From Methanosarcina acetivorans C2A (GTDB lineage Archaea > Halobacteriota > Methanosarcinia > Methanosarcinales > Methanosarcinaceae): a stretch of DNA of 64,000 bases. Below are positions 55,595 through 64,000 of the stretch, piece after piece (position 1 is the first letter of the stretch; each line of letters opens with the position of its first letter). The notes beneath the pieces are model-generated. The model had not been told where the DNA came from. It did no database searches and was given only the letters and a program-made list of their open reading frames with translations. Location: contig NC_003552.1 in the NCBI RefSeq assembly GCF_000007345.1, forward strand, positions 2,542,001 to 2,606,000. The letters are read 5' to 3'. Made by a program: the position numbers and the translations under genes.

Positions 55595-56364
55595 CGGATT
55601 GCTTGTTGAGTACAGGGACTCTACCAGCCGATGAAGGTGGGCTGCTTTTACGATTAAGCCGAACATTCCCGTGCAGGACCATGTTCATGAGCGCGATCCT
55701 GACCATCGTAGAGTCAAAATCAAAGCCTTCACCATATCAGGCTTGTCTACTGCTTAAAAATGTACCTGTAAGCCATAAACGAAACCTGCCTTCCCGCATG
55801 CCGGGTCGCAGATCCTGTCATTGATATCAGGGTCCACAAGCTCGACTATCATTCTGATTATGTGCCGGGGATCCTGAACTGCCCGTTCTTCCCTGCAGTT
55901 GCGAGCTGGCTTAAGAGGTATTCGTAAATGTCTCCCTGCACATCCGAAGTCTGCCCTGAAATATTGAGTTCGTCAATAATCCCTACCGCTTCCTGCACAA
56001 GGGAAGGCTTCGGGATAATGAACACGGCATCTTTCATATGCTGGGAAAAAAGCGTCTTCTCCCCATCATGAATATTCTTGATAAACGGAAACACAACGTC
56101 TCTGACGTGTTTCAGCATCTCCTCAGCAGATTTGTGTTTCCATTCCGACCACCTGCACTCCTCATGCCCTTCAAAAATAGATACATAAGCCTTTCCGGTA
56201 GCATTTGCCCGCCTCTGTTCCAGTACGTCCATATCCTCAAGTCTCTTCATGAAAATGAGGTACGACATCTGCTCAATGGACTGCAAGGGGTTGGACAGCC
56301 CGCCGCTCCAGAACCTGTCCCAGAGGGCATCTATTTTTGACTTTTTTTCGGGTGGGAGTCTCAT
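55595..56364 (-). pseudogene. hsdM: hsdM relic (type I restriction-modification methyltransferase)
   Basis: The N-terminal 165 residues are well preserved (IDALWDRFWSGGLSNPLQSIEQ, then SYLIFMKRLEDMD, GQTSDVQGDIYEYLLSQLA), ending at GKNGQFR. A frameshift at about 55865-55875 follows. The next frame continues as HIIRMIVELVDPDIND then the SAM motif start DPACGKAGF, stops, and after an internal deletion shows GFDFDSTMVRIALMNMVLHGN (to about 55640). It was an N6-adenine methyltransferase subunit. The catalytic NPPF motif is absent. It cannot be functional. Confidence 0.85.
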
Positions 56365-59714: not shown

Positions 59715-60126
59715 AATGCTCTTTTAAGTTATTAAAGTTATAAGGACTTATAAGTTACTATTAATTACTTTTAATTAGCAGTTCCTGAAAAATCGAATCA
59801 AAATTTATTTCGATCTCTTCTGTCTTTTGGAAAAGATCACTTTCCTTCGTTGAGCGTGGCAGAAACTATTAGCATTACAATATGACTGCACATGTCCGAA
59901 AAAGTGTTATCCTATCCTCGAAAAGGGTTTTTAAATTCGCATGGTATCGAAAGCCTCCGCCAGCTTGTCTGGCGGCCCTTCCCCATAAGAAGAAAAAAGT
60001 TGAAGGAAGAAGGAGTAAAAAGGCTGAATGCCGAAAGAAAAAGCTTGAAAAAGCAGTAAAGAGAGATAAAAGAAGGAATAAGTTGTTATTTGTCAATTTT
60101 TTTACTTAATTGGGTTGTAATTTACC
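59715..60126. other. Intergenic region with a small hairpin
   Basis: CCGCCAG/CTGGCGG (59957-59963, 59969-59975) is a perfect 7-bp stem with a 5-nt loop. A 75-codon frame (59882-60109) is extremely Lys/Arg-rich with no start signals and was not accepted as a gene. Confidence 0.45.
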
Positions 60127-60240
60127 GATTCTCTTCTTTTTTGTCTTTTTATGGGACACGCCGCTCTCCTTCATCGAGCGTGACAAGAACGGTTCGGTAA
60201 GCCGAATATAGTTGTACGGGTCAGAGTTCAGTATTCAATT
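60127..60240. repeat. 114-bp direct repeat, left copy
   Basis: Matches 63229-63342 over the same length with about five differences. Both copies lie just beyond an hsdS 3' end, contain a CGCTC/GAGCG hairpin and a pyrimidine run, and probably represent the original hsdS terminator region. Together they bracket the retron. Confidence 0.85.
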
Positions 60241-60258
60241 TTTTGCAATTCATGCTTA

Positions 60259-61086: not shown

Positions 61087-62775
61087 TTATCCACAATTTT
61101 TATTAAAATCATATAATATTCTCTTCATTTCGTCTCTCATAATTAGACAATAAAATTGATCTTTTTCTTTGGCCTTATTATTATTTCTCATCATTATTTT
61201 TAATTCTTCACATAATTCATTGTTCAGATTGAAATTAGTTACTATCGAAATTAAATCCAAATCTTCATAGCATGTACATTTAAAAAACTGTCTGAATGTA
61301 CTGTTTTCGCTATCAGTATTTTTTCTCCTTTCATTCTTGTCTGATATATCACTTGATTTCATAACAAATGCTACAGCTATGGTATCACCATAAAACTCAG
61401 TAGTAGCTTTCATGTCATAAATTTCATGACCATGATGATGTCCACCCGTCGTTCCAGTATAATGACCTATAATGTATTTCATACATTTCTTATATATTTC
61501 ATTTTTAACATCCAAACAGTCGCTACAAGCTTCAACCCCGTGTATTTTCGTACTACATTTTTCTTTCAGGTTGTTCAACTGTTTTTTAAACTCTTCTGTA
61601 AATGCACCTTCTGGAAGTTCTACAATCTTTGTAAAGAATCCTAATTCATCAAATTTAACTAAAATAGTTTTAGACACTCTTTTCAACTGATTTGTGTTAA
61701 TTTCGCTCTCTTTTATTTCTTTTATATGTTCATTATATTCGGACCAATCAATTTTTTTAAGTGATTCTATTAAAGGTGTCGCAAATTCAGGATCAACCGC
61801 ATTGGCACATCCTAAGTGTCCAAATATTCTTTCTCTAAAAAAAGGATCATTTGATCTATTTTCTGCAACTGGACCATTAGTTTGGATATTATTAACAATT
61901 GCTTTTAGATTCTTTTTCTTGTTCCTACCAATACTAACTTTGTCGTTGACCACTAACCCTGTAACTTTTTGTCTTGAGCCTTTTGAAAACATTCTAGTTT
62001 TTTCATGATTCACAACAAATCCATCATCCTCAATGATCCCAATAATTTTTTCTTTGTGCATGGGAAGCTTATATGAGCCAGAAATCGTGACATCATCTGC
62101 ATATCTTGAATACCTAAAATTTCGTCTTGCACAATATTTTGCTATCTTTTTGTCAAGTTTTAAAGCGACCAAGTTGGCTAACATTGGACTTGTAGGTGCA
62201 CCCTGAGGTAATTTCCAATGATAAGTACAAAGATCAGCAAGTGTCCAAGCAATTTTTTTAGTATACCCAGCCGATTTAAATACATAATAAACAGATCTGA
62301 AATTTATGCTTGGGAAAAAATCTTTAATGTCGACACCTAATACCAGATCTTGATTTACATGCACTTTAGCATTAGTAAAAATCGTCTTACCAGGAATGAA
62401 TCCATGTGCGTAATCGCCAGAATTTAACTTATATAAAATATTGTCTAAAATCCATCTTTGAATATATTTCATTTTTTTAGATGGTGCATTGATTTCCCTA
62501 AAATCCCCATTTTTCTTAGGTAGTTTAAATGTAATATATCCTTTCTTTTTGTTTGACAGAAAAAGATTAACTTGTTTAAGCGAAGAATTTGTTAGTTTGC
62601 AAAAGTGGTTGATGTCATATATGTAAGGTAAATTTTTTGATTTTAATCGTTTGAAGGACTTGAATTGTTCTTCGTATTCCTCTTCAGTTAGGTTTGGAAT
62701 TATGCCTTCTTCTGTGTAATTTTTAAACAAGATTTGTAATTTTTCATCTTCTGTTAGTTTATTTTCCACAGACAC
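61087..62775 (-). CDS. Retron-type reverse transcriptase with C-terminal extension
   Basis: A reverse transcriptase of about 562 residues. Domains in order (numbering from 62775) are an N-terminal helical region and INAPSKKMKYIQRWIL (RT1/2). Next come VDIKDFFPSINF (first catalytic Asp), LPQGAPTSPMLANL (RT4), RYSRYADDVTIS (YADD, about residue 225) and KVTGLVVNDKVSIGR, the VTG motif of retron RTs. From about residue 350 a unique extension has a CSDCLD pair, GGHHHGHE and EFYGDTIAVAFVMKSSD, then YCLIMRDEMKRIL. The D..(x)n..MKS spacing could be a PD-(D/E)xK-like core (inference). The frame opens at 62829, but GTG 62775 or a nearby codon is the likely start, outside the a2 repeat. It makes msDNA from the adjacent ncRNA. 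Confidence 0.88.
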   Translation of the reverse strand: MSVENKLTEDEKLQILFKNYTEEGIIPNLTEEEYEEQFKSFKRLKSKNLPYIYDINHFCKLTNSSLKQVNLFLSNKKKGYITFKLPKKNGDFREINAPSKKMKYIQRWILDNILYKLNSGDYAHGFIPGKTIFTNAKVHVNQDLVLGVDIKDFFPSINFRSVYYVFKSAGYTKKIAWTLADLCTYHWKLPQGAPTSPMLANLVALKLDKKIAKYCARRNFRYSRYADDVTISGSYKLPMHKEKIIGIIEDDGFVVNHEKTRMFSKGSRQKVTGLVVNDKVSIGRNKKKNLKAIVNNIQTNGPVAENRSNDPFFRERIFGHLGCANAVDPEFATPLIESLKKIDWSEYNEHIKEIKESEINTNQLKRVSKTILVKFDELGFFTKIVELPEGAFTEEFKKQLNNLKEKCSTKIHGVEACSDCLDVKNEIYKKCMKYIIGHYTGTTGGHHHGHEIYDMKATTEFYGDTIAVAFVMKSSDISDKNERRKNTDSENSTFRQFFKCTCYEDLDLISIVTNFNLNNELCEELKIMMRNNNKAKEKDQFYCLIMRDEMKRILYDFNKNCG

Positions 62776-62817
62776 CACTATAACCAACTTAAAAAAATAT
62801 ATTGATAAATATGTTTT

Positions 62818-62999
62818 AGTTGCCCTCACTAAATCGTTGGGCGATTTACTGCATGGAATATCCAGTGCAGCCAGGGTACCGGCGGAGCGGATATTTCATG
62901 TTTTCGGCCAAAGGTTTACCTTTGCTAAGTATGGCATTTGCATGGTGTAACACCACACATAACTCTCTGGCGAGAGTTAATTCAAAACTGAGGGCAACT
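62818..62999 (-). ncRNA. Retron msr-msd non-coding RNA
   Basis: Perfect 11-nt inverted repeats AGTTGCCCTCA (a1 at 62999-62989, a2 at 62828-62818) close a region of about 182 nt. Read 5'-3' on the minus strand its stems are AACTCTC/GAGAGTT (62978-62961), TGGTG/CACCA (62955-62943) and CAAAGG/CCTTTG with loop TAAA (62924-62909). A 9-bp stem around ATATCC/GGATAT (62897-62855) and AAATCG/CGATTT (62847-62831) follow. The arrangement, ending about 40 nt before the RT start, is that of a retron. The branching guanosine is not certain; an AGC occurs at 62926-62924. Confidence 0.82.
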
Positions 63000-63020
63000 G
63001 AAGAAATGGAAGTTTACATA

Positions 63021-63030
63021 ATATAAATAT
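63021..63030 (-). promoter_or_regulatory. TATA box of the retron
   Basis: ATATTTATAT on the minus strand lies 22-31 nt before the a1 repeat, the normal archaeal TATA-to-start distance. Transcription should therefore begin at or very near a1 and run into the RT gene. Confidence 0.65.
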
Positions 63031-63228
63031 TTGACGATGTGAAACAGTTATTAAGGAAAAGTAAGAAAAATGATAACTTTTTTCATTCATATTTATTCAC
63101 AATGATCCAAAGTAAATCGATCTTTGTGTATCCATCCGCTTTAAAAAGACCTTCCGATGATTGCTGTTAGTAGTAAATGATAACCGAGTAACAAACGCCC
63201 CTGCCATCTTGCCTGACGATCTTTTGCT

Positions 63229-63342
63229 GATTCTCTTCTTTTTTGTCTTTTTATGGGACACGCCGCTCTCCTTCATCGAGCGTGACAAGAACGGTTCAGT
63301 AAGCCTAATATGGTTGTAAGGGTCAGAGTTCAGGATTCAATT
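63229..63342. repeat. 114-bp direct repeat, right copy
   Basis: The partner of 60127-60240, placed 16 bp beyond the stop of the hsdS gene. See that entry for the comparison. Confidence 0.85.
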
Positions 63343-63358
63343 TCTTAAAACTTCATTT

Positions 63359-64000
63359 TTATGAAAACAGTTCTCCTGTGAAGGCTTTCTGCATAAGGGA
63401 GTCGAAGAGGTTATTGATTTTGAAAGAGGATTGTTGTTGAGATACAGTTGTTTTTTCAATTTGGTGTACCATCTCAGCAAATCTGAGCTGAAGATCAAGA
63501 GATGCAATCAAAGCAGGGAAATTTTTCAATTGAGTCGAATTTATGCTTGCAATTCCCGTAGTTTGTTTTGCAGATTTGAGGAAATACATTTTTCCATAGG
63601 TGCTACCTATAAGCATACTCAAATACTCAGGAACTAGACATTCTCTGTTGACTCTTACTCTAAATATGTGGTTTTGATGTATACAGGTTGGAATTTGTCT
63701 GTTCCAAACAGCACCCCTTCCCAATTTATCGGGATCTCCACCTTCGGTTAGTAAAATATCCCCACCTTGCAGTGCATATTTTTCTACATCTGATGGTAAA
63801 ACTTCAATCTCTTTAATTTCTGTTAAGTCCAGATAACCATCCTGAACGTTTGCCACTCTCAAATAAGGAACAAAAACAGTAGGCTTTCCAGCAAGTTTTC
63901 TTCCCTTTGTAACTCCAGATACGATTTCAGAAACATCTTTCAACTTTATTTCTTTCCAATTTTTAGGATTTACTACCGGATCTCCAAACATCTCCAAAAA
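63359..64000 (-). CDS. hsdS: Type I restriction-modification specificity subunit HsdS, C-terminal part
   Basis: The frame runs off the window end; 213 residues are visible. They form one target-recognition domain (NWKEIKLKDVSEIVSGVTKG, LRVANVQDGYLDL, GGDILLTEGGDPDKLGRGAVW, then CIHQNHIFRVR). A conserved helical spacer ends FDSLMQKAFTGELFS. FLEMFGDPV at the edge of the window is the usual linker before the second recognition domain, so the missing part lies beyond 64000. HsdS selects the DNA target of HsdM/HsdR. No intact hsdM is in the window. Confidence 0.9.
   Translation of the reverse strand, partial: FLEMFGDPVVNPKNWKEIKLKDVSEIVSGVTKGRKLAGKPTVFVPYLRVANVQDGYLDLTEIKEIEVLPSDVEKYALQGGDILLTEGGDPDKLGRGAVWNRQIPTCIHQNHIFRVRVNRECLVPEYLSMLIGSTYGKMYFLKSAKQTTGIASINSTQLKNFPALIASLDLQLRFAEMVHQIEKTTVSQQQSSFKINNLFDSLMQKAFTGELFS

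Follow-up and report, generated by a model that had tools for sequence, protein, structure and literature searches.

The window considered here, meaning the whole 64,000-nucleotide stretch of DNA that was analysed, contains a retron locus of Methanosarcina acetivorans C2A at positions 61087-63030 of the minus strand. The locus consists of a TATA box, a non-coding RNA (ncRNA) and the gene for a reverse transcriptase (RT) that is fused to a C-terminal extension of about 215 residues (Table 1). The first-pass annotation of this DNA had placed the TATA box, a perfect pair of 11-nt a1/a2 repeats and five intervening hairpins at this locus, and all of these elements were recovered where that annotation had put them. 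An A/T-rich box comparable to the TATA box is found at similar spacing in most of the relatives' loci; scans of the locus for sigma-70 promoters and terminators are uninformative for archaea.

Table 1. Features of the retron locus (window coordinates) and of the alternative C-terminal domain in related loci (coordinates of those loci).
Feature	Position	Strand	Remarks
TATA box ATATTTATAT	63021-63030	-	about 22 nt before a1
a1 arm AGTTGCCCTCA	62989-62999	-	perfect 11-nt repeat with a2
Candidate branching guanosine	62988	-	first base past a1; invariant in 10 of 10 aligned ncRNAs
msr hairpin SL1	62960-62979	-	two-sided changes in 4 of 8 pairs
msr hairpin SL2 TGTGTGGTG...CACCATGCA	62939-62959	-	96% of cells paired
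Hairpin SL3 CAAAGGTAAACCTTTG	62909-62924	-	70% of cells paired; conservation lower
Probable msd hairpin SL4	62852-62900	-	sequence varies among relatives, hairpin in nearly all
Probable msd hairpin SL5, adjoining a2	62831-62847	-	100% of cells paired
a2 arm TGAGGGCAACT	62818-62828	-	perfect 11-nt repeat with a1
Retron reverse transcriptase	61738-62775	-	NAxxH, YADD, VTG motifs; GTG start about 62775
Fused C-terminal domain, probable effector	61087-61737	-	Cys4 knuckle, invariant residues, predicted fold
Alternative C-terminal domain	L006:2581-3216 and L005:874-1515		EruA similarity: L006 copy

The ncRNA is 182 nt in length and is bounded by the a1 and a2 arms. Folding of a 201-nt region gives -70.4 kcal/mol (z -6.5), a stability equalled by none of 200 shuffled sequences. 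Among ten aligned loci, 92.4% of the cells pair and 15 of the 40 pairs carry changes on both sides, a level of covariation reached in 0 of 500 shuffles, and sliding the pairing partners lowers the paired fraction to 36-54%. The a1/a2 helix is 98% paired over the ten loci, with 6 of its 11 pairs changed on both sides. These sequences were aligned with MAFFT without any fitting to structure, and the covariation counts refer to sequences rather than to independent events. Hairpin SL4 has a folding z of -1.7 in M. acetivorans, mostly -2.5 to -4.3 in the relatives and -1.2 in METP1. A covariance model built from the ten ncRNAs located an eleventh directly upstream of an RT (G550, E 1.2e-17), and because this sequence had been left out of the model it represents an independent find. 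Because homologous RTs in other archaeal genomes are preceded by such arms, hairpins and a TATA-like box, with the ncRNA present in 11 loci, these features of the locus go beyond chance. The ncRNA structure is conserved by selection, and the first-pass annotation, which would have been refuted by homologues lacking compensatory changes across 62818-62999, survives this comparison. The guanosine that follows a1 is a candidate branch point by analogy with known retrons, where the branching G occupies this position, and branching itself is inferred. A search of Rfam returned nothing relevant, and the archaeal RNA model, run with filters off against bacterial type III-A loci, gave weak matches only, none of them significant.

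The RT has the motifs NAxxH, YADD and KVTG, and its gene, including the fused extension, ends at 61087; an alternative 580-aa reading frame starting at 62829 would overlap a2. Its proposed retron character is upheld by model scores: the best PADLOC match is RT_III-A (343 bits), followed by II-A and XIII (307 bits), and the NCBI retron St85 model NF038233 scores 255 bits, above its cut-off of 235. The nearest solved structure is that of retron Ec86 (E 1e-51). Phylogenetic placement, the annotation's suggested check, likewise puts the RT inside the retrons. Within the tree the ten fused RTs of archaea are united in a single clade (95/96), and the branches that link the RT to types III-A, II-A and XIII are unresolved. 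Group II intron RTs are numerous in M. acetivorans, which is the one circumstance in favor of reading the locus as an ordinary group II intron or DGR-type RT preceded by a chance RNA fold. That reading is already refuted and can for practical purposes be set aside: the RT scores and motifs are retron-specific, the group II model gives 54.8 against a cut-off of 300, the tree separates the RT from the genome's own group II enzymes with support of 99/98, and the covariation of the ncRNA speaks against a fold arisen by chance. A further archaeal retron-like RT was noted at L067:1-2003 (G310), where an upstream 297-aa gene resembles, by eye, a type II nucleoside deoxyribosyltransferase-like effector.

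The retron lies among fragments of type I restriction-modification genes and insertion sequences. The restriction-modification pieces (window 55858-56364 and 63359-64000) comprise an N-terminal fragment of hsdM and an hsdS cut short beside an apparent transposase gene, and a large hsdR-like open reading frame is located outside the window (L090:8161-11028). Two direct repeats of 124 nt, 94% identical and 3102 bases apart (window 60121-60244 and 63223-63346), flank the retron; a longer match of 181 bases takes in the end of an hsdS-like gene, and part of the repeat occurs about 26 further times across the genome. This setting, together with a frameshifted copy in G075, is what could be expected of a decaying remnant that has lost its function in the M. 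acetivorans genome. Such decay is very improbable, however, given an intact reading frame, perfect a1/a2 arms and dN/dS values of about 0.07-0.2 for the RT part as well as the C-terminal part. No separate reading frame fit to serve as an effector adjoins the RT, as the first-pass annotation had stated. A comparison of the neighborhoods of the 11 loci found no gene except the RT to be systematically common, and genes for a PRTase and a DNA-binding protein are absent in the window and around the relatives.

The C-terminal extension had been described as carrying Cys pairs, a GGHHHGHE stretch and an MKS segment that match no nameable retron effector, and both parts of this description are borne out. 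A Cys4 knuckle (C406, C416, C419 and C430 in the numbering of the 561-aa protein) is followed by H446-x-G448-x-E450-xx-D453, K472 and Q495. The four cysteines and the H-x-G-x-E-xx-D...K...Q pattern are common to all retron copies of the domain, and G, E, D, K and Q are invariant in 12 of 12 aligned domain sequences, retron-linked and others. Sequence searches with the domain against Pfam, PADLOC, PHROGs and PDB sequences yielded no match, the PADLOC fused-retron models matching only the RT part of the protein. For some relatives the PADLOC RT_III-A model PDLC02944 (597 positions) extends into the knuckle region if the RT forms part of the query; homology is not demonstrated thereby, because the match is lost once the domain is given alone. 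The domain itself is under purifying selection, with dN/dS of about 0.09-0.21.

Relatives of the domain are fused to retron RTs in G009, G081, G077, METP1 (the same genome as G658), G333 and G550, and in frameshifted form in G075. The domain also occurs, in more distantly related form, on unrelated proteins (L108, L123 and L124). With the domain as query, viral contigs and plasmids contained no retron relative; stepwise searching of them turned up a single protein on a bacterial plasmid and another on a viral contig. The archaeal example (L108:1276-3061, G088) is a 473-aa protein whose C-terminal end is the knuckle/E-D-K-Q domain and whose gene overlaps a 130-aa nucleotidyltransferase-like gene; the two may form a toxin-antitoxin or defence pair of their own. 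The knuckle domain is also C-terminal in a protein of 721 aa encoded on a 33-kb viral contig from IMG/VR (L124:1-2166), and a helicase gene neighbors a shorter homologue carried by a Paenibacillus plasmid (L123).

Two weak relatives (L119 and L121; E 0.0017 and 0.013) were added to deepen the domain alignment. A first AlphaFold model based on seven sequences was discarded for low confidence (pLDDT 49.5). AlphaFold2 with twelve sequences produced a model with pLDDT 77.8 and pTM 0.78, the five models being alike in confidence. Together with the invariant E, D, K and Q, the predicted order of strand-strand-helix-strand-helix-strand agrees with the core of restriction endonucleases. A Foldseek search of viral proteins returned a best E of 1.5e-3, several restriction endonucleases appearing at probabilities of 0.84-0.99, whereas no meaningful match was found in the PDB and neither library held a fold match below E 1e-3. 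For the extension, a restriction-endonuclease-like core is predicted, and the fold matches are only suggestive. The residue two positions before K472 is hydrophobic (V, L, I or similar, as in VMK, LMK and IIK) in the retron proteins, and the canonical D-(D/E)xK is absent, so that any catalysis would depend on a variant site. Nuclease activity of the domain is likely, as an inference from the predicted fold and the conserved residues, and has not been shown. The non-canonical motif, the lack of a significant fold match and the absence of the domain from family libraries leave room for an effector in which the H, G, E, D, K and Q residues serve some other activity, for example on nucleotides or NAD. 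This possibility is unlikely without being negligible, since the predicted succession of strands and helices with its invariant E, D, K and Q fits a restriction-endonuclease fold, and restriction endonucleases, an Mrr-domain protein and Rpb5 are overrepresented among the viral fold matches.

The distribution of C-terminal domains among the archaeal RTs is revealing. In two loci (G084 and G086) the RT and the ncRNA are kept while the C-terminal domain is a different one, and a profile comparison of the two domain types detected no relationship between them. The alternative domain of G086 matches positions 1172-1304, the C-terminal part, of antiphage_EruA, a NACHT protein, with E 3.2e-7; because this is well below that model's own cut-off, it is to be read as domain similarity only. 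The RT of G016 is followed by this same alternative, PD-(D/E)XK-like domain, here without its D and ExK residues, and then by a nitrilase resembling that of CARF_nitrilase effectors (E 1.8e-91). The G016 fusion was observed at L007:1618-4086 and again at L096:6433-8901, with an in-frame TAG 11 codons into the N-terminal region. The alternative-type retron of G084 (L094:5480-8386) adjoins, as judged by eye, a cas1-like reading frame.

The RTs of G077, which has the knuckle type, and G086, which has the other type, are sisters (91/97) and have similar msd stems. Constraining all the knuckle-type RTs to one group lowers the log-likelihood by 31 units with a p-AU of 0.056, and repeated exchange of domains among retron RTs is for this reason favored by the sequence comparisons but unproven. 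In G009 the RT is nearest to that of G081 (dS 0.80) and the C-terminal domain is nearest to that of M. acetivorans (dS 0.62), mixed affinities that, at the level of sequence divergence, are consistent with recombination between modules.

Because close relatives keep the RT and the ncRNA and swap the domain, the extension is probably the effector of the system; its toxicity and antiviral activity are inferred. The lack of any other conserved gene, purifying selection and the exchange of the domain all support this assignment, and the earlier proposal that the extension is the natural effector candidate is strengthened by its replacement with an EruA-like domain, or with an EruA-like domain and a nitrilase. 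The fused domain is the sole effector candidate at the locus, although its activity is unproven. Alternatively, the locus may be a retron in which the C-terminal domain is an msDNA-processing, DNA-binding or adaptor module and killing is performed by an effector encoded elsewhere, as the PRTase is in type III-A. The bacterial type III-A relatives do have separate effector genes (a PRTase and a small open reading frame upstream), and the loss of the motif beside the nitrilase in G016 indicates that an analogous PD-(D/E)XK-like domain can persist without catalysis. This alternative is nonetheless rather improbable, as the 11 loci are without any conserved neighboring gene, the replacement domains resemble parts of antiviral effectors and the invariant polar residues suggest catalysis.

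The interpretation of the locus as a complete single-protein retron, in which msDNA restrains a zinc-knuckle, restriction-endonuclease-like nuclease, is considered probable in the absence of data on msDNA, toxicity or antiviral activity. Under this interpretation the ncRNA would be transcribed from the TATA promoter and fold by way of a1 and a2. The RT would then prime at the guanosine past a1 and copy the msd hairpins SL4 and SL5 into an msDNA of at most about 76 nt, and the resulting RT-msDNA complex would restrain the fused C-terminal domain. Viral activity that altered or removed the msDNA could free the nuclease, which might attack nucleic acid and stop the infection, probably through killing or arrest of the host. 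All steps past production of the ncRNA and protein are inference, and msDNA production, inhibition and release are inferred from Retron-Eco2 and similar systems. In Retron-Eco2, which has been solved, msDNA restrains an RT-Toprim fusion whose effector domain, toxic by itself, stays silent as part of the fused protein (PMC12405507), and in other retrons the effector is also controlled by msDNA (PMC13158370).

The presence of the RT in M. acetivorans is not new, as a retron-like RT of this organism was reported in 2003 (cited in PMC6868368). What is new is the ncRNA, together with the family of effector domains and the exchange of these domains; it is not excluded that such fusions are already included in a published listing of retron types. 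The literature searched contained no experimental archaeal retron, work on retron function having been done on bacteria. The locus is best described as belonging to an archaeal lineage of single-protein retrons with interchangeable fused effectors. A broader proposal, for which the chances appear evenly balanced, is that archaeal retrons are a type of their own, in which an archaeal promoter, the ncRNA and the RT make up a conserved chassis and C-terminal antiviral cassettes (a new family of Cys4-knuckle nucleases, a domain also present in NACHT antiphage proteins, and a nitrilase) are attached to it in exchange for one another, the knuckle being an undescribed effector family that also serves other archaeal and bacterial systems. 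Because M. acetivorans is genetically tractable, the system intact and the promoter archaeal, msDNA production and antiviral use in an archaeon can be tested. The natural swaps on one chassis offer clean comparisons for learning how an effector is restrained by msDNA. The knuckle domain may represent a new nuclease family.

In its composition, an ncRNA and one RT-effector polypeptide without a separate effector gene, the locus is similar to Retron-Eco2/Ec67 (type I-C, RT-Toprim), the type XI RT-protease and the type XII RT-TIR retrons. It differs from these in that its RT is closest to III-A models, its fused domain has no relation to Toprim, protease or TIR domains, and its host and promoter are archaeal; membership in I-C, XI or XII is ruled out by the absence of their effector domains. 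The C-terminal domain is similar to PD-(D/E)XK and Mrr-like restriction endonucleases in its predicted alpha-beta core and in the order in which E, D, K and Q follow one another, and is dissimilar in the hydrophobic residue at the usual (D/E/Q)xK position, the Cys4 knuckle in front and the undetectable sequence similarity. Retron Ec86 (type II) has in common with it the guanosine after a1 and is the closest solved RT; the effector of Ec86, however, is a separate nucleoside deoxyribosyltransferase-like protein. With the type III-A retrons (L056, L057 and L126) the locus has in common that RT_III-A is the best PADLOC match of its RT, a link that the tree leaves unresolved, and that the ncRNA immediately precedes the RT gene. 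Membership as a full type III-A retron is ruled out because there is no PRTase: the M. acetivorans locus has neither PRTase nor DNA-binding gene and possesses the fused domain instead, and the archaeal ncRNA model has no significant match in type III-A loci. In Retron-Sda1 the usual PRTase effector of a type III RT has likewise been replaced (PMC12548924), there by two separate genes (HipA and DUF3037) and in M. acetivorans by a domain of the RT polypeptide itself.
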